Assembly: GCF_015207425.1 (NCBI RefSeq)
Contig: NZ_JADEWZ010000007.1
Coordinates: forward strand, 62,001 to 126,000
DNA length: 64,000 nt
Source: Lusitaniella coriacea LEGE 07157
Lineage (GTDB): Bacteria; Cyanobacteriota; Cyanobacteriia; Cyanobacteriales; Spirulinaceae
Direction: 5' to 3'
The first letter of the stretch is position 1, and every line of letters starts with the position of its first letter. This document shows positions 2,116 through 33,081 of this stretch, in pieces. The position numbers and the translations under genes were made by a program. The notes beneath the pieces are model-generated. The model was given only the letters and a program-made list of their open reading frames with translations. It was not told the DNA's origin and ran no database searches.

Positions 2116-2518
2116 TAAGCTGCTATGCATTTAAATTGTGACTGAGGCAGACACGGGGACGGGGTGACGGCACTTCGACACGCTCAGTGACCGGGTGACG
2201 CGGATAGGGAGGAGCAGAGGAAGCTGGGGAAGCTGGGGGAGTTTTTGGATGACACGGAGACGGCTAATGACTGTTCCCTGTTCCCTGTTCCCTGTTCCCT
2301 GTTCCCTGTTCCCTGTTCCCTGTTCCCTGTTCCCTGTTCCCTGTTCCCTGTTCCCTGTTCCCTGTTCCCTGTTCCCTTTTGCTATCGCGCAAAGTTCCAT
2401 ATCCCAAAGGTCAACGCTATAGGAATAGCCAGTTTTTTGCTGACACCTGATAGCTGATGGCTGACTGCTTAATGCGATACAGAGCGCCCTATACCCAATT
2501 TAGATATGTTTTAGCTTA
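2116..2518. repeat. MITE-like element with imperfect terminal inverted repeats (copy 1)
   Basis: The left end (from 2116) reads TAAGCT, then variable bases, CATTTAAATTG. The right end (to 2518), read in reverse complement, gives TAAGCT, AAAACATAT, CTAAATTGGG. The same ends bracket a shorter element at 5355-5525. The interior holds a heptamer array and a 100-bp block that recurs inverted at 24668. It encodes no credible protein; open frames here are by-products of the tandem repeat. No target-site duplication is clear. Confidence 0.6.
2272..2377. repeat. Tandem heptamer array (GTTCCCT)n, about 15 copies
   Basis: A near-perfect run of the heptamer GTTCCCT covers about 106 bp. On the other strand it reads GGGAACA, a short tandem repeat type known in filamentous cyanobacteria. 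The GGGAACA/GGGAATA variants recur at 24764-24790 and inside the giant kinase gene at 25764 and 26075. Frames across the array give repetitive peptides and should not be taken as genes. Confidence 0.95.
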
Positions 2519-24433: not shown

Positions 24434-25062
24434 GATTTTGACTGTGAGAAGAGAGGTGATTTGAACTCTATTTTTTAAAAAAAGATTAGCTTGAAAAGTA
24501 ATTTCTTCTTGCTATCAAACAATTGTTGTTTTAAAAGATACAAGAGAAGCTTTTCAAAACTTTACATAATAATAAGCGTATTTTTCTTGTGAGACATCAT
24601 TCCCTGGTCATAAATCTCTAGGGAGATATATTGCGAGCTTATCGCTTCAATAATTATGGCTAATCTGTAAGCAGTCAGCCATCAGCTATCAGGTGTCAGC
24701 AAAAAACTTGCTATTCCTATAGCGTTGACCTTTGGGATATGGAACTTTGCGCGATAGCAAAAGGGAACAGGGAATAGGGAATAGGGAACAGCGCCTGACG
24801 GCAAGGCAGAGGGCAGAGGGCAGGTGGCAGAAGGTTTCTCAATTTCCCCCAGCTTCCCCAGCTCCCCCAGCTCCCCTCTCCCCCCGTCTCCCCGTCTCTC
24901 CGCGTCTCCGCATCTCCGTCACCCCCTCAACGCACAAGACCGAGGTTGACAGACCACTAGGTACGTGCTTCGTGACGGACAAAACAAAGACCCTCTTGGA
25001 GAGATTAGACTGGTACAAGGTCACAAAACCTTTTCTACAAATTTGGTGTCTTGACAGTACCT
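24434..25062. other. Repeat-rich intergenic region, no gene seen
   Basis: This 629-bp gap separates the divergent glycosyltransferase and giant kinase genes. Bases 24668-24768 are an inverted copy of 2371-2471. A GGGAACA/GGGAATA heptamer tract follows, then C-rich filler (CCCCAGCTTCCCCAGCTCC, GTCTCCCCGTCTCTCC) to about 24920. A 126-codon frame here encodes only repeat-derived peptide and is not a gene. The kinase promoter probably lies after 24930. Confidence 0.7.
24668..24768. repeat. About 100-bp interspersed repeat, inverted copy of 2371-2471
   Basis: Read in reverse complement, 2371-2471 matches this block with a single visible mismatch (ACTGGCTA versus ACTTGCTA). Both copies adjoin a GGGAACA heptamer tract at the same end. 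Its proximal part (GTCAGCCATCAGCTATCAG) recurs in fragments at 5644 and 9290. Confidence 0.9.
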
Positions 25063-28000
25063 ATGAGCCAAGACAAAACGCTCGCCATTGCCAACACGAA
25101 AATTGCCTATAAACTTCACGAGAGCGCTCAATGTATCGTGTATCGAGGGTATTGGGAAGCGAAAGAGGAACCCGTCGTCCTCAAAATGTTGAAAAACCCT
25201 TACCCTTCCCCGGAACGCCTTGCTAAGTTTAAGCGGGAATACGAAGTAACTCGCTCCCTTTCTCTTCCGGGGGCGATTGCGGTTTACGCCTTGGAAAGCG
25301 ACAGGCAGCGCCCTGTCATGATTTTAGAAGATTTTGGGGGAGACTCCCTAACGCGCTTGAACGTGGCAGGAAAGCTTGAATTAGAAGCCTTTTTAAAACT
25401 CGCGATCGCGATCGCGGAAATTTTAGGACAAATTCACCGCTCCCACATTATCCACAAAGATATCAATTCAAGCAATATTGTTTGGAATCCTCAGACGGGA
25501 GTTGTCAAAATTATTGATTTTGGAATTTCTACCGTTCTATCTACAGAAAACCCCACCTTTCGCAATCCCAATGTCTTAGAAGGAACGCTGGCGTATATTT
25601 CGCCAGAACAAACGGGACGGATGAATCGAGCCATTGATTATCGCAGCGATTTCTATTCCCTTGGCGTTACATTCTACGAATTGTTAACCGGAGAACTCCC
25701 TTTTCAATCTGAAGATTTGATGGAATTGGTACATTGTCATATTGCGAAAATTCCTCCATCATTAGGGAATAGGGAACAGGGAATAGGGAATAGTGAGAAG
25801 ATTCCGCAAGTGCTGTCCGATATTGTAATGAAATTGATGGCAAAAAATGCGGAGGATCGCTATCAATCCTCAGAGGGAATTGTTGCAGATTTAAAACAGT
25901 GTTTGAATCGACTTGAAACCCACAAAAAAATCGATTTCTTCGTCCTCGCGCAACAAGACTTTTCCGAACGCTTTACTCCCCCACAAAAGTTGTACGGAAG
26001 GGAAAGAGAAATTGAAACTTTATTGGCCGCATTTGAAAGAGTTCAGTCATTGGTCAACAGTCATCAATTATCAGGGAATAGGGAACAGGATATCTCCACG
26101 TCGCTTTCTCCCCATCTCCCAGCTCCCACAGCTCCTACGCCTTCCCAAAGCGAACTCATCTTAGTCACGGGCTATTCAGGGGTGGGAAAGTCTGCTTTAG
26201 TTCGAGAAATTCATAAGCCCATTACAGCAAAAAAAGGAAACTTTATTGCAGGAAAATTCGATCGCTACCAGCGTAATATTCCTTATTTCGCGATCGCGCA
26301 AGCGTTTAATGAATTTTGCGATCGCGTCCTCACAGAAAATGAAGTTACACTAACGCAATGGCAAGAAAAAATTCGCGTGGCGGTTGGAAGCAACGGACAA
26401 GTTTTAATTGAAGTTATTCCCCATTTAGAATGGCTAATTGGCAAACAGCCGGATGTTCCAGTTGTGGGAATTCAAGAGGCTCAAAATCGTTTTAATGTTG
26501 TTTTTCAAAATTTCCTAAAAGCCATTTGTCAGCCCGAACATCCTTTAGTTATTTTTATTGATGACTTGCAATGGGCAGATGGCGCGTCTTTGATGTGGTT
26601 GAAGACGGCTCTTCGAGATCGAGAAATTCAAAATTTATTGGTGATTGGAGCCTATCGAAACAACGAAGTAGACGGGGCGCATCCTCTCACGCTTGCATTA
26701 GAAAGTATCGAACAAAATGGAGGACGATTATCCAAAATTGAACTTGAAAACTTACAAGGTCAAGATGTCAATACTTTAGTTGCTGACACTTTATCTTGTA
26801 CTCCTGTTGATTGCCAAGATTTAACGCACTTGATTTATCAAAAAACTATAGGGAATTCATTCTTTTCGATCGAATTCTTAAAAACACTCCACACAGAAAA
26901 GCTATTAATATTTAATCATAAAAAACGGAAATGGCAATGGGATATTGACGCAATTCAAGAAAAAAGTATCACCAATAATGTTGTCGAACTGATGGCAACA
27001 CAAATCGAGAAATCCCCCCCTGAAACTCAAAAACTTTTGCAACTAGCAGCTTGTATTGGCAGTCCCTTCGATTTACAAACCCTATCGATTATTGCGCAAA
27101 TTCCAAACATCCCGACTCATCTGCGACCTGCTCTAAAATCGGGATTAATTGTTCCCTTAAACGAGCAGTATAAATTGATGGAGGTGGTGGGGGAAGAACT
27201 AGACTTAACCCTCGCCCAATTTAAATTTCAACACGATCGCGTTCAACAAGCTGCTTATGCTCTAATTGAGAAAGAGCGCAAACAATCCCTGCACCTTAAA
27301 ATTGGCGATCTTCTGCTCTCTAATACCTCGAAAGAAGCTCTTGAAGAACGCATTTTTAGAATTGTCAATCAACTCAACGCTGGAATTTCTTCAATTGAAA
27401 ACCCAGAAAAACGGTTGCAATTAGCCCGTCTAAATAGAATTGCGGGGCAAAAAGCGAAAGAAGCCAACGCTTACGAACCTGCCCTTAATTACTTAACCCT
27501 TGCTCTCAAACTCCTTCATGATTCTTCCTGGAAAACTCACTATCCCCTCACCCTTTCCCTTTACGAATCTGCCGCAGAAATCGCCTATCTCAACGGCAAC
27601 TTTAAATTGCAGTACCAACTGACCGCCGTGGTGCGCCAGGAAGCACGAAATATCCTGGATAGGGTAAAAGTTGATGAGTTGGAAATTCAAGCTTACACCG
27701 CTCAAAATCAGCTTAGAGAAGCCGTTAAAACTGCGCTCTTTCTCTCCAAGAAATTGAGAGTCAAATTCACTAAAACGCCGAGTAAAACCGATATTGTCCT
27801 GGAGTTATTAAAAACCAAATGGATACTGCGCGGGAAAACCCCGGCAAAATTAAGCCGCTTGCCAAAAATGACCGATAAAATTGCTCTCGCGGCAATGAGA
27901 ATTATCCCTAGTATGGGTTCTGCGGCTTATGTTGTGGTTCCCGAACTGGTTCCGCTTATTGTATTCAAACTGGTTCAACTTTCGGTGAAATACGGCAATG

Positions 28001-31000
28001 CACCCCAATCTCCTTACGGTTATGCGGCATACGGTTTCATTCTCTGCGGTGTTGTGGGGGAAATTGAGCAGGGTTTTGCTTTTGGAAAGCTCGCTTACCA
28101 ATTATTAGACCAATCGGAGCGATCGGATTTACGTGCGAGAACGTACTTTTTAGTTAATTGTTTCGTGGGTCATTGGAAAGAACATTTGAGAGAAAGTTTG
28201 CCTCAGTTTTTAGAGGGGTATCAGATTGGCTTGGAAACGGGGGATTTGGAATTTGCCGCTTGGTCGATTCAAACCTATTCCGATTCTTCCTACTTTGCAG
28301 GGATGGAACTCGCTGAACTCGAACCTCAATTCGTGCGCTATGGCGAAACTCTCATTCAACTGAAACAAGAAGCGATTTTAGATCTGCATCGCATCTATTG
28401 GCAAGCGGTGTTAAATTTGAGGGCGGGCGATCGCGCAGAACCTCCTCATTATTTAATTGGAACCGCTTACGACGAGCGGGAAATGCTGCCCCAATACCGC
28501 CAGCAGAACCAACAAAGCGCGATCTTTCACCTGCACTTTAATAAACTGATTCTGAGCTATTTATTTGGGGATTATCGAGCAGCAAAGGAGAATGGCGCGA
28601 TCGCGCGACGCTATCTTGAAAGCGTTATTGGGTTATTTAATGTCCCCCTCTTCCATTTTTACGAATCCCTGAATAACCTTGCACTATATACTGAAAAGCC
28701 TTCTAAAATCCTCCTTTCCCGCGTCAAAGCCAATCGGAAAAAACTAAAAAAATGGGCGCATCACGCACCGATGAATCACCAACATCGCTTCGATCTCGTC
28801 TGTGCGGAATGGCAGCGCATTAAAGAAAAACCCCACCGCGCAATGGACTTGTACGAAAGTGCCATTAAAAGTGCGAGGGAAAACGGCTATCTCCAAGATG
28901 AAGCACTGGCTTGGGAACTCGCCGCCCAATTTTACCGCGATCGCGGCAGGGACAAAATTGCTCGAACCTATCTCCTCGAAGCCCATTACCTTTATCATTG
29001 TTGGGGCGCGATCGCGAAAGTCAAACACCTCGAACAACAATATCCGCAGGTGTTCGTTCAAACCCCAACCCCAAGAACCTCCCTCAATATCACCTCAACC
29101 CAAGAACAAACGCAAATCTCCGCAGCCTTCGACCTCGCCAGCATTCTCAAAGCCACGCAAACCCTCTCTAGCGAAATGGTACTAGAGACACTCCTCGCCA
29201 CCATCCTCAAACTCGTTCTCGAAAATGCCGGGGCGCAAACAGCGTATCTCGTTTTGCACGCTCAGTCTAGGAATGAGGGAGAATGGGTCATTGCCGCTTC
29301 AGGAGACATAACAAAACCTGAATTTAAAACCCAACAATCGATTTCCCTCGAAACCAATCCTCCCCTCCTTTCCCCTGCAATCGTTCGGTACGTCCTTCGC
29401 ACCCAACAAACCCTCCTCCTCAACAACCCCGCAGCAGAAGGCGACTTTACCAACGATGCCTACATCCTCCAGCAACGTCCCCAATCCATTCTGTGCCTGC
29501 CCTTGCTCAACCAAAGCAACCTCGTGGGGATTCTTTACCTAGAAAACCATTTAACAACCAATGCCTTCACCGCAGAGCATTTAGAAATTCTGCAACTGCT
29601 CTCCCTGCAAGCCGCCATTTCCCTAGAAAATGCCAAACTTTACGCCGAAGTGCGAGAGAACGAAAATCGCTTAAATCAAGTCATTGAAGCCATTCCCGTA
29701 GGAATTGGCATCCTCGATGCCCAGGGTCATCCCTGCTACGGCAATCAAAAAGCCATCGAGTTATTGGGAAAAGAAGTCATTCAAGAGGTCACCGCAGAGG
29801 AAATTGCCGAAGTCTATCAAAACTATATTGCCGGAACTCATGAGCTGTATCCCACCGAAAATCTTCCTATTTTTAGGGCGTTGCAGGGAGAGCGTACCTA
29901 TGTAGACGACATGGAGATTCATCGAGACGATGATATTATTCCCATTGAAGCCTGGGGAACGCCCGTGTTCGATAGAAACGGGAATGTTGTTTACGCGATC
30001 GCGACCTTTCAAGAAATTACCGAACGCAAACAAGCCCAACAATTTCTTTCTGATTACAGTCGCACCCTAGAGAGAGAAGTTGCCGAACGCACCGCCGCTC
30101 TGCAAGAAAGCGAATCCAAATTCCGCAGCATTATTGAAAATGCCAACGACCTCATCTACGTCCTCAACTTCGATAAACAATTCACCTACGTTTCTCCCAA
30201 CGTTAAAGAGATTTTGGGATACGAGGTAGAAGAAATGCTCGGTCAACCCTTTTCCGCCTTTATCTATCCCGAAGAACGCTCTATCTGCACGATGGTTTTC
30301 CAGCGATTCCTCGACGGCGAGTCAAAAGTATCGGGAATTGAATATCGCATGAAATGCAAAGACGGCAATTATCGATGGCACGTCACCAATGCTTCAATTC
30401 TCAAAGATAAATTCGGAAACCCGTTTGGCTGTACGGGAATTGCCCGCAATATCAGCGATCGCAAACATGCAGAAGAACAACTAAGCAAAAGCGAGCGATT
30501 TCTCAATCAAGCTCAACGCATCGCCTGCATTGGTAGTTGGGAATTCGACCTGAAGACCCAAAAACTCACTTGGTCTGCGGAGATGTTTCGCATCTTCGGA
30601 CTCGACCCCTCACAATCCGCACCCTCCCTAGGAGAACACCCTCACCTCTTCCATCCCGACGATTGGCCCATCGTACAAAACGCACTCCAACAAATGCAAA
30701 CAATGGGCATAACCCAGCAGATTGAATACCGCGTCATTCGTCCCGATGGTTCCCTGCGCTACGTCGAAGGCAGGGGAGAAGTGATTCGCAACGATCGCGG
30801 AGAAATTGTTAAACTCCTGGGAACCGCATTGGATATTAGCGATCGCGTCCAAGCAGAAGAAGCCCTGCGAGAGAGCGAACAGCGCTTCCGCAACGCCTTT
30901 GACACCGCCGCCGTCGGGATGTGCCTCCTCTCCCCTGCCGGACAATTCCTTCAGGTCAACCCCTCCCTGTGTCAAATGTTCGGCTACTCCGAATCCGAAC

Positions 31001-33081
31001 TGCTGACCATGAACTTTCAGGAAATTACCCATCCCGACGACCTAGAAACCAATCTCAACTATATTCGGCAACTGCTCGCCGAAGAAATTTCCTGCTTTCA
31101 CATGGAGAAGCGATACTTCCACAAAAACAGACAGTTAATTTCTGTCCTACTCAGCGTTTCTCTCGTCCGCGATTCCCAAGAGGAACCCCTCTACTTCATC
31201 GTTCAAGTTCAAGACATCACCCAGCGCAAACATACCGAAGAACGATTGCGCCAAAACGAAGCCTTACTGAGGGCGACCAACGAAGTATTACCCCTCGGTC
31301 TTTACGTCGCCGACAACCACACCAATCAAACCCTATTAGTCAACGAAGAATTTTGCCGAATTTGGCAGTTGGATGAACTCTCAACGCAAATCCAGGCGGG
31401 AGCATTAACCAACGAACAAGTTATGTCTGCCTGCACTGAAAAAATCGACGTAACCGCCTTTGTCCCCACCAGTACCCCCCAAGAATTTAGCGATACCTCA
31501 AACACCATTGAGGATGAAATTCCCCTCCTGGACGGTCGCATTCTACGGCGCATTTACGGCTTGGTTCGGGACGAAAATGGGGTCTACGGGTTTTTGTATC
31601 TGTTTGAAGATATTACCGAACGCAAGCGCGCAGAAGCGGAACTGCAAAAGGCAAAAGAGAGTGCAGAAGCGGCAAACCGAGCTAAAAGTACATTCCTCGC
31701 CTCCATGAGCCACGAACTGCGCACTCCCCTCAATGCCATTCTCGGTTTTAGTCAACTCCTGGCAACCGACCCGTTTTTGGACGGTCAACAAAAAGGACAC
31801 CTGCAAATTATTAATCGCAGTGGCGAACACTTACTCGCAACAATTAATGACATCTTATCCATGTCCAAAATTGAGGCGGGTCGCGTCACTTTAAATGAAA
31901 TTGAGTGCAATCTCCACGAACTTCTCGATTCGATTTATGAAATGCTGCAATTGAAAGCGCGGGGGAAAGGGTTGGGATTGCATTTGCAAGCGACTCCCGA
32001 CGTTCCGAGGTACGTGCGTGTTGATGAGGGAAAATTACGCCAAGTCTTGATTAATTTGCTGGGAAATTCGATTAAGTTTACAGAACAAGGAAGCGTGACT
32101 CTGCGCGTGTCAGCGCATCGTGGCGAGGAAACAGATGAGGCAACGGTTGTGCTGCAATTTGAAGTTGAGGATACGGGTGCGGGGATTTCGCCGGAGGAGA
32201 TTGAGATGCTTTTTGAACCTTTCGTGCAAACGCGAACGGGTCGATCTTCTAAGGAGGGAACGGGTTTAGGGTTGCCGATTAGCCGGGAATTTATTCGCTT
32301 GATGGGGGGAGAGATTGCAGTGAGTAGTATTCTCAATCGCGGAACGACCTTTTCCTTTGAAATTCCTGTTACCCCAACAAAGAAAATAGGATACGGGCGC
32401 GATCGCGTGACTCGTAAAATTGTTGGTATTAGCTCAACTTGCCCGGACTATCGAATTTTGGTTGTGGAGGACGATCTCGAAAGTCGCTTGCTACTCGTGG
32501 AATTGTTGGCATCGGTGGGATTTTATGTTCGCACTGCCGAACAGGGAAGAAAGGCGGTTAGCCTATGGCAGGATTGGCAGCCCGACTTGATTTTAATGGA
32601 TCTCCAAATGCCCGTGATGGATGGTTACAAAGCAATGGAGCAAATTCGCGCGAGGGAGCGGAAATTACAACAACAGCGTTCTGTCCCGATTATTGTTCTC
32701 ACGGCAAATGCGTTTGTGGAAGAACGAGATAGGGTTTTGGGTGTGGGAGGAAATGATTTCATCTCAAAACCTTTTTATCGAGAAGAGTTGTTGGAAAAAC
32801 TGGCAAGCTACCTCAATCTGCAATATCTGTATGAGGAAATGGGGAACGAAGGGGATAGTATGCTTGCTTTGCCTCAATTAACCCGCGAAGATTTACAGGT
32901 CATGCCCGATGAGTGGATTGAAGCGCTGCACTACGCCGCCAGCGCCATTGACGAACGGGGAATTTTAAAACTGATTGATGCCATTCCTTCCACAGAAGCG
33001 ACGCTAAAAAATGCCTTGTTGGAGTTAGTGGATAATTTTCGGTTGGATACGATTGTGGAAATTGCTCAACATGAAAATTAA
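25063..33081 (+). CDS. Giant hybrid kinase: Ser/Thr kinase, AAA ATPase, GAF, five PAS, histidine kinase, receiver
   Basis: About 2672 residues; ATG 25063 is preferred over the TTG at 25051. The order is: Ser/Thr kinase (about 10-290; HKDINSSN near 130, DFG present); AAA ATPase (Walker A GYSGVGKS near 367, Walker B IFIDDLQWAD near 504); a helical TPR-like region to about 1340; GAF (about 1356-1525); five PAS domains (about 1533-2190); HisKA (SMSHELRTPLNAI near 2214); HATPase (to about 2433); and a receiver (LILMDLQMP, Asp near 2511), with a helical tail. This is the family of cyanobacterial and fungal dual-specificity 'ATP-binding sensor' kinases. Two repeat-derived peptides are inserted in frame at about 234-247 and 326-362. 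It is monocistronic and its signals are unknown. Confidence 0.9.
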   Translation: MSQDKTLAIANTKIAYKLHESAQCIVYRGYWEAKEEPVVLKMLKNPYPSPERLAKFKREYEVTRSLSLPGAIAVYALESDRQRPVMILEDFGGDSLTRLNVAGKLELEAFLKLAIAIAEILGQIHRSHIIHKDINSSNIVWNPQTGVVKIIDFGISTVLSTENPTFRNPNVLEGTLAYISPEQTGRMNRAIDYRSDFYSLGVTFYELLTGELPFQSEDLMELVHCHIAKIPPSLGNREQGIGNSEKIPQVLSDIVMKLMAKNAEDRYQSSEGIVADLKQCLNRLETHKKIDFFVLAQQDFSERFTPPQKLYGREREIETLLAAFERVQSLVNSHQLSGNREQDISTSLSPHLPAPTAPTPSQSELILVTGYSGVGKSALVREIHKPITAKKGNFIAGKFDRYQRNIPYFAIAQAFNEFCDRVLTENEVTLTQWQEKIRVAVGSNGQVLIEVIPHLEWLIGKQPDVPVVGIQEAQNRFNVVFQNFLKAICQPEHPLVIFIDDLQWADGASLMWLKTALRDREIQNLLVIGAYRNNEVDGAHPLTLALESIEQNGGRLSKIELENLQGQDVNTLVADTLSCTPVDCQDLTHLIYQKTIGNSFFSIEFLKTLHTEKLLIFNHKKRKWQWDIDAIQEKSITNNVVELMATQIEKSPPETQKLLQLAACIGSPFDLQTLSIIAQIPNIPTHLRPALKSGLIVPLNEQYKLMEVVGEELDLTLAQFKFQHDRVQQAAYALIEKERKQSLHLKIGDLLLSNTSKEALEERIFRIVNQLNAGISSIENPEKRLQLARLNRIAGQKAKEANAYEPALNYLTLALKLLHDSSWKTHYPLTLSLYESAAEIAYLNGNFKLQYQLTAVVRQEARNILDRVKVDELEIQAYTAQNQLREAVKTALFLSKKLRVKFTKTPSKTDIVLELLKTKWILRGKTPAKLSRLPKMTDKIALAAMRIIPSMGSAAYVVVPELVPLIVFKLVQLSVKYGNAPQSPYGYAAYGFILCGVVGEIEQGFAFGKLAYQLLDQSERSDLRARTYFLVNCFVGHWKEHLRESLPQFLEGYQIGLETGDLEFAAWSIQTYSDSSYFAGMELAELEPQFVRYGETLIQLKQEAILDLHRIYWQAVLNLRAGDRAEPPHYLIGTAYDEREMLPQYRQQNQQSAIFHLHFNKLILSYLFGDYRAAKENGAIARRYLESVIGLFNVPLFHFYESLNNLALYTEKPSKILLSRVKANRKKLKKWAHHAPMNHQHRFDLVCAEWQRIKEKPHRAMDLYESAIKSARENGYLQDEALAWELAAQFYRDRGRDKIARTYLLEAHYLYHCWGAIAKVKHLEQQYPQVFVQTPTPRTSLNITSTQEQTQISAAFDLASILKATQTLSSEMVLETLLATILKLVLENAGAQTAYLVLHAQSRNEGEWVIAASGDITKPEFKTQQSISLETNPPLLSPAIVRYVLRTQQTLLLNNPAAEGDFTNDAYILQQRPQSILCLPLLNQSNLVGILYLENHLTTNAFTAEHLEILQLLSLQAAISLENAKLYAEVRENENRLNQVIEAIPVGIGILDAQGHPCYGNQKAIELLGKEVIQEVTAEEIAEVYQNYIAGTHELYPTENLPIFRALQGERTYVDDMEIHRDDDIIPIEAWGTPVFDRNGNVVYAIATFQEITERKQAQQFLSDYSRTLEREVAERTAALQESESKFRSIIENANDLIYVLNFDKQFTYVSPNVKEILGYEVEEMLGQPFSAFIYPEERSICTMVFQRFLDGESKVSGIEYRMKCKDGNYRWHVTNASILKDKFGNPFGCTGIARNISDRKHAEEQLSKSERFLNQAQRIACIGSWEFDLKTQKLTWSAEMFRIFGLDPSQSAPSLGEHPHLFHPDDWPIVQNALQQMQTMGITQQIEYRVIRPDGSLRYVEGRGEVIRNDRGEIVKLLGTALDISDRVQAEEALRESEQRFRNAFDTAAVGMCLLSPAGQFLQVNPSLCQMFGYSESELLTMNFQEITHPDDLETNLNYIRQLLAEEISCFHMEKRYFHKNRQLISVLLSVSLVRDSQEEPLYFIVQVQDITQRKHTEERLRQNEALLRATNEVLPLGLYVADNHTNQTLLVNEEFCRIWQLDELSTQIQAGALTNEQVMSACTEKIDVTAFVPTSTPQEFSDTSNTIEDEIPLLDGRILRRIYGLVRDENGVYGFLYLFEDITERKRAEAELQKAKESAEAANRAKSTFLASMSHELRTPLNAILGFSQLLATDPFLDGQQKGHLQIINRSGEHLLATINDILSMSKIEAGRVTLNEIECNLHELLDSIYEMLQLKARGKGLGLHLQATPDVPRYVRVDEGKLRQVLINLLGNSIKFTEQGSVTLRVSAHRGEETDEATVVLQFEVEDTGAGISPEEIEMLFEPFVQTRTGRSSKEGTGLGLPISREFIRLMGGEIAVSSILNRGTTFSFEIPVTPTKKIGYGRDRVTRKIVGISSTCPDYRILVVEDDLESRLLLVELLASVGFYVRTAEQGRKAVSLWQDWQPDLILMDLQMPVMDGYKAMEQIRARERKLQQQRSVPIIVLTANAFVEERDRVLGVGGNDFISKPFYREELLEKLASYLNLQYLYEEMGNEGDSMLALPQLTREDLQVMPDEWIEALHYAASAIDERGILKLIDAIPSTEATLKNALLELVDNFRLDTIVEIAQHEN
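25764..25802 (+). repeat. Heptamer repeat insertion inside the kinase coding sequence
   Basis: The stretch GGGAATAGGGAACAGGG and the following GGGAATAG units encode GNREQGIGNSEK in frame. The surrounding protein (AKIPPSL ... IPQVLSDIVMKLMAKNAEDRYQS) reads as one continuous kinase segment if this piece is removed. The nucleotide unit is the same GGGAACA/GGGAATA heptamer found in the intergenic array 1 kb upstream. Confidence 0.75.
26040..26150 (+). repeat. Interspersed-repeat insertion between kinase and ATPase domains
   Basis: The DNA reads GTCATTGGTCAACAGTCATC, GGGAATAGGGAACAGG, then CCCCATCTCCCAGCTCCC and CACAGCTCC, the same succession of motifs as the intergenic repeat and C-rich filler at 24668-24920. 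It stays in frame and encodes about 37 residues of low-complexity linker (SGNREQDIS, LPAPTAPTP) just before the ATPase Walker A motif. Confidence 0.7.

Follow-up and report, generated by a model that had tools for sequence, protein, structure and literature searches.

In-frame heptamer repeats at a loop and a linker of giant Hstk-type kinases in cyanobacteria

How do stretches of a 7-nt tandem repeat that lies mostly between genes come to stand, in frame, within the coding sequence of a giant protein kinase? The question is raised by a 64,000-nt stretch of DNA, here called the window (G000:C7:62001-126000), from the cyanobacterium Lusitaniella coriacea LEGE 07157, whose genome comprises 5.86 Mb in 114 contigs.

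The kinase gene and its two segments

The gene concerned (Table 1) encodes, by Pfam, a Ser/Thr kinase domain (Pkinase, aa 25-270) followed by AAA_16 (from aa 362), GAF, PAS repeats, HisKA/HATPase_c and a response regulator (REC), and the occurrence of Pkinase, AAA_16, GAF and HisKA/HATPase on one chain marks the product as a kinase of the Hstk type. A DFG motif (IIDFG), an HKD catalytic loop and an MSHELRTPLN H-box are seen in the translation. Its homologues are for the most part cyanobacterial. The Hstk-type family is very large, counting 58 matches in the window genome and, in relatives, as many as about 60.

The original prediction placed in-frame pieces of a GGGAACA/GGGAATA repeat at 25764-26150, a range that covers both segments described here, one of them inside the Ser/Thr kinase domain and the other in a linker, about 37 residues long, that precedes the ATPase. 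All of this was borne out: the reading frame is open over its 2672 aa, the heptads lie at 25765-25792 (site 1) and 26074-26087 (site 2), site 1 falls within the Pkinase match and the linker of site 2 stands directly before AAA_16. The corresponding peptide stretches are GNREQGIGNSEK and SGNREQDISTSLSPHLPAPTAPTPSQSELILV. Site 1 consists of four heptads, GGGAATA-GGGAACA-GGGAATA-GGGAATA, which read GNREQGIGN in the codon series TTA GGG AAT AGG GAA CAG GGA ATA GGG AAT AGT GAG, and 31 nt fit the repeat over all codon positions; the codon position that would otherwise give TAG is CAG in the window gene and TGG in the homologue L138. Site 2 is composite, with heptads of the TCATCAR/TTATCAG type followed by GGGAATAGGGAACAGG, in which the GGGAAYA part amounts to two heptads, and by a C-rich filler of the CTCCCC type. 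A search for local palindromes (inverted repeats) at both segments found none. The further proposal that the C-rich filler of site 2 is shared with intergenic DNA 1 kb upstream holds in a loose sense, in that the likeness is one of 9-mer CCCAGCTCC units at 72-94%, and better matches to site 2 lie elsewhere in the genome.

An AlphaFold2 model built from 43 sequences (mean pLDDT 79) places site 1, with a local pLDDT of 66-74, after a helix at 219-228 and before one at 249-258; judged by their order, these are predicted to be the C-lobe helices G and H of the kinase. In a phmmer alignment to PknB, a six-residue gap falls just after GNREQGIG. Foldseek matches to the bacterial kinases PknA/PknB/Stk1 and to B-Raf confirm the kinase fold and no more. 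Site 1 stands apart in sequence from the motifs of ATP binding and catalysis, and both the model and the length variation among homologues suggest that the loop is exposed and tolerant.

Table 1. The kinase gene, its two segments and related heptamer arrays, in positions of the window
Feature	Positions	Strand	Basis or remark
Giant Hstk-type hybrid kinase gene	25063..33081	+	Open reading frame, translation, Pfam; 2672 aa, intact
Site 1, repeat-derived loop L234-GNREQGIGNSE-K246	25762..25800	+	Heptads, AlphaFold2 model, 24-residue form in most homologues
Site 2, repeat-derived linker between kinase and AAA ATPase, aa ~328-364	26044..26154	+	27 matches in the genome at E<=0.01, one of them the segment itself
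Intergenic GGGAAYA array upstream of the kinase gene	24762..24791	+	Repeat family of the kinase segments
Intergenic GGCAGAG heptads with C-rich filler	24805..24918	+	CCCAGCTCC units loosely shared with site 2
Perfect intergenic array, GGGAACA on the minus strand	2271..2377	-	15.3 units; longest of the GGGAAYA family in the window

The heptamer family in the genome

The repeat to which the segments belong is dispersed. Exact or one-mismatch copies of a two-unit pattern, GGGAAYAGGGAA, number 22 in the window against 0.76 expected, and a three-unit pattern, AGGGAAYAGGGAAYAGG, has 586 matches in the genome against none for its reversed control. A further scan used all repeated intergenic 12-mers, with HIP1 removed and reversed k-mers as control, and covered a genome sample of 1.264 Mb in tiles, 82% of it coding by our own gene calls with a simple hexamer gene caller; it returned 13 repeat-derived stretches inside genes against one for the control. 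On these three comparisons, a coincidental likeness to the repeat was rejected. The repeat origin of the segments at the DNA level is established.

Within the same sample, arrays of 19 nt or longer number 31, of which 28 lie outside called genes, so that arrays are depleted from genes; of the remaining three, two occupy one and the same kinase loop in different kinase genes and the third is in an NRPS gene. The GGGAAYA family, tandem, dispersed, mainly intergenic, far more frequent than by chance and with 2-15 units per array in the sample, may be called STRR-like, a label given from these properties. Of 120 genomes sampled from the order, 71 contain GGGAAYA, some of them hundreds of times. 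One sampled genome (G040/G020) has no match to AGGGAAYAGGGAAYAGG and 81 to the reversed pattern, which suggests an unrelated heptamer family fitting the control by chance.

The 13 stretches also supply the survey of other genes with repeat-encoded peptides that had been proposed, and seven of them lie in giant kinases. Such kinases carry a stretch in four of six cases, against six of the 583 other scored genes (p=6e-7), and the difference persists among genes of more than 1000 aa (four of six against two of 25, p=0.006); these counts are not fully independent, because the kinases are paralogues with some segments in common.

The loop and linker in homologues and paralogues

About 125 homologues, from 29 genomes and from GTDB contigs, were aligned, with a single set of settings for alignment and tree; their retrieval with the window protein, inserts included, may favour similar loops. 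As anticipated, the segments are missing from most of them: 72 of 126 sequences have a loop of 24 residues, HIAKxPxPPHELNPEIPQxxSDIV, and the shortest linker falls 31 residues short of that in the window kinase. The next commonest loop lengths, 30 (15 sequences) and 23 (12 sequences), are 7 residues apart, which equals three heptads. Measured against the 24-residue loop, site 1 is a net gain of 6 residues in which native loop residues have been replaced, and its reading as a clean addition of 12 residues was ruled out.

Exact 7-nt tandem tracts gather at the same two places, with 11 in the loop (7.2 kb) and 4 in the linker (7.4 kb) against 3 in the remaining 166 kb of the 125 homologues, and periods other than 7 are rare in this count. 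When codons are shuffled within the loops, 0.08 tracts arise where 11 are observed, and among periods 4-12 none but 7 exceeds 2. At least eight unrelated heptamers are found in the loops: GGGAAYA in the window gene, its paralogue C5:88317, L138 and L047; AAAATTC (L082), AAAAGTC (L115), GGGGTGT (L137), GGCAACA (L061), TCATCAG (L073) and GGGGAAT (L119); CCCTACA together with CCCCGTT (L127); and, interrupted, TCAGCTT/TCAGCAG (L140). Different unit sequences imply different gains. By parsimony on a maximum-likelihood tree built with the loop and linker columns left out, at least 10 changes in the presence of an exact heptad tract and at least 23 in a loop length of 28 or more are counted, figures in which gain and loss are not told apart and which rest on a tree with many weak branches. 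Absence or replacement of the segments in homologues, and recurrence at the same site, are established.

What reads as the cleanest case of loop replacement is offered by L081, L082 and L083, Nostoc orthologues of the window gene's clade, whose flanking DNA is 88-91% identical and whose loops, FLRDRVQGTLNREE, DKFKIQNSKFKNKQL and LLGHREE, are unrelated. Within a well-supported clade of seven members, the 24-residue loop of L121 stands beside the GGGGTGT loop of L137. No conserved motif survives across the homologue loops in the loop alignment.

A Nostoc clade, L047, L081 and L083 also have residues resembling GNRE. The same residues in unrelated cyanobacteria had been named in advance as evidence against a repeat origin, and they do exist to the letter (in Nostoc, GNREWGIGNREE, LLGNREE and others like them), yet at the codon level they too are the repeat (GGGAATAGGGAATGGGGAATAGGGAATAGGGAA in L138), which points to a capture that is repeated or old and not to a native motif. 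Since they recur across a Nostoc clade, the GNRE-type loops there may be old and may have changed in length later by 7-residue steps, without new insertion. The suggestion that intergenic repeats are entering proteins is supported by nucleotide-level matches to intergenic repeats, and the pattern is broader than was proposed.

Some loop heptamers abound in the genome that hosts them. The unit of L140 has 175 copies in its own host against at most 8 in each of 18 other genomes tested, and that of L082 has 176 in its own, the highest number among 19 genomes. For L115, the host genome yielded only two overlapping matches to the loop heptamer, probably the loop's own, and the hosts of L137 and L081 hold few copies of theirs; the expectation of host copies for every loop heptamer fails for the first and is weakly borne out for the other two. 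For GGGGTGT the reversed control is uninformative, since this unit, when reversed, gives the same array in rotated form.

The site 2 segment has 26 partial matches elsewhere in the window genome, many of them at a junction of two heptad types, and the linker of the paralogue C5:80390 has 42-43, one of which is a near-complete copy in the paralogue C58. All eight checked matches of these two linkers in the gene-called sample are intergenic. At the DNA level, the window gene and its paralogue C5:88317-92522 are 97% identical over a 60-nt block at the loop, 72-83% around it and 40-55% over most of the kinase, while for C58 and C5:80390 the identity is 98-100% in 90 nt of linker and mostly 40-75% in the surrounding DNA. 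Cassettes of loop and linker that are 97-99% identical in paralogues otherwise 40-75% identical show that cassettes also move between genes, and their sharing among paralogues is established. Judged from these identities, the immediate donor of site 1 may have been the paralogue C5:88317-92522 and not intergenic DNA directly. The notion that C58 is a frame-shifted allele, raised by one reported TAA, was dropped, as its kinase and AAA frame contains no stop.

Explanations and known systems

Both segments very probably reflect a tolerated capture of slippage- and recombination-prone 7-nt repeats at exposed sites, filtered by frame and spread by conversion. Dispersed STRR-like arrays would grow, shrink and relocate by slippage and ectopic recombination, and most of their insertions into coding sequence would be lost, since the arrays shift the frame or carry TAG. 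Two permissive places, the helix G-H loop and the linker preceding the AAA ATPase, would tolerate those versions whose net length is divisible by 3 and which lack an in-frame stop. The encoded peptides, short and hydrophilic or Pro/Ser-rich, would probably form a flexible surface loop and a spacer with little effect on catalysis, and a segment, once in, could reach paralogous kinases by short-tract gene conversion. We infer capture by slippage and recombination under selection for frame and a polar peptide only, with near-neutral function. A filter on the character of the peptide is supported by the orientation of the arrays. Stops are absent from 75 of 75 frames on the reverse strand of the arrays and from only 33 of 75 on the forward strand, and still the four coding arrays, a small number that includes two of common descent, are all read forward, as polar GNREQ peptides.

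The same polar bias, with coding-strand heptads that are mostly purine-rich, would also suit a loop and linker that are selected functional modules, the peptides of the G-H loop altering docking as the CMGC insert does in MAPK/CDK kinases and diversifying partners among dozens of paralogues, an explanation that we regard as rather unlikely. The CMGC insert of the eukaryotic MAPK/CDK/GSK3 kinases lies between helices G and H and is conserved, structured and engaged in docking; by the AlphaFold2 model and the phmmer gap against PknB, the kinase loop lies between the same helices, at what we take to be the position of that insert. Functional modules would further agree with a loop that evolves faster than its flanks between near-identical orthologues and that varies among the paralogues of one genome. 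Unlike the CMGC insert, however, the loop is unconserved among homologues, of low complexity and derived from repeats, without any surviving motif, and a neutral filter on surface loops would yield a polar bias as well. We also think it quite unlikely that giant kinases possess a dedicated, fast-replaced variable loop and linker, fed by the active heptamer of the genome, swapped among paralogues as cassettes and providing standing variation for kinase wiring; if this were true, intergenic repeats would be a standing supply of such variation.

It is highly improbable that the array is a contingency (phase-variation) switch, in which one unit more or less would shift the frame and silence everything after the kinase domain. 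Any change other than one of three units does break the frame, because 7 is not a multiple of 3, and the loop lengths of 23 and 30 residues are three units apart, but arrays of about four units are short for frequent slippage and no out-of-frame allele was noticed among homologues that had been retrieved as open frames. Most improbable of all is that GNRE(Q)GIGN is the native conserved loop of a kinase subfamily, resembling the repeat by coincidence or codon bias, since similar residues in the Nostoc clade, L047, L081 and L083 are outweighed by a codon record on which this reading was rejected, namely the match of 31 nt at all codon positions, the unrelated heptamers at the same site and the codon shuffles.

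Tolerated capture of 7-nt repeats at exposed sites can be set beside several known systems. Vioque is said to have found in 1997 that STRR sequences of heterocystous cyanobacteria also lie inside the RNase P RNA gene; there, as here, 7-nt tandem repeats are tolerated at a variable region of a functional gene, the host being an RNA gene there and a protein gene here, a likeness drawn from unit length and placement. Rickettsia palindromic elements (RPEs; Ogata et al. 2000, reviewed in PMC2229807) occur in protein-coding genes, and the enzyme tested, Gmk, is active with its insert. The cyanobacterial repeat resembles them in being dispersed, with copies in intergenic DNA as well as in frame inside genes, and in being missing from homologues. 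RPEs are palindromes of 105-146 bp with terminal inverted repeats, form stem-loops and lie in many different genes, whereas the cyanobacterial segments have 7-nt units, span about 28-110 nt, comprise many unrelated units and recur at one kinase loop; as they contain no palindrome, they are not RPEs.

According to the available text of PMC4679880, TAACTGA heptamers of Beggiatoaceae and cyanobacteria are mainly intergenic, with some in ORFs, one set being located in what is predicted to be a surface loop of a protein resembling RNA polymerase beta-prime, and that of PMC4692102 describes GGGGAYT repeats of Nostoc, 7-nt tandem units which are likewise mainly intergenic and in part within ORFs. The arrangement is the same here, but the unit is GGGAAYA, and the available text of the two papers contains no report of a capture of differing heptamers at one protein site in several lineages. 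A survey of cyanobacterial Ser/Thr kinases (PMC2176072) mentions insertion in general, its available text giving no description of the loop site, and our literature search found no report of one protein site recurrently hit by unrelated heptamers across cyanobacteria.

In-frame repeats are therefore already known in kind, as RPEs and as heptamers in ORFs, and what appears to be new is the recurrent hotspot. Different repeats in different lineages at one kinase loop and linker mean that bacterial 'junk' repeats supply new protein segments again and again, at a place that can be predicted. The kinase loop offers a clear, repeated natural experiment on non-coding repeats becoming protein, with near-identical orthologues that differ mainly at the loop. 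With it, one can test whether capturing a repeat is neutral or rewires signalling, and what makes units of 7 nt predominate. There is a warning in it too: the low-complexity loops of these kinases derive from repeats and are not to be taken for conserved motifs.

Repeat-derived coding stretches were observed at other places as well. An nSTAND1-WD40 gene unrelated to the kinase (L193:6555-11333; G000:C2:186552-191333) has a linker, HQSSVNREQYISTSPASQSPHYPVTPSP, made of the composite repeat of site 2 in the same reading frame, the two aligning as HQSSVNREQYISTSP and HQLSGNREQDISTSL. In an NRPS gene of 4190 aa (L217:2863-15432; G000:C5:142863-155435), a GGGAAYA array is read as EGIGNREQGT at about residue 3659. 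Two giant kinases, L214:8317-12519 and L181:7879-13245, contain G-rich repeat-derived segments, GGRGDGGTRR at about aa 107 and ETRGGGDAER at about aa 103 respectively, seemingly at the same N-terminal place, which is possibly a third insertion site of the kinase domain. Further stretches (L164, L195, L204 and L217:1-1668) lie in a TPR-CHAT N-terminus, the C-terminal tail of an AI-2E transporter, a PMT_2 protein and an AMP-binding/PP-binding protein.
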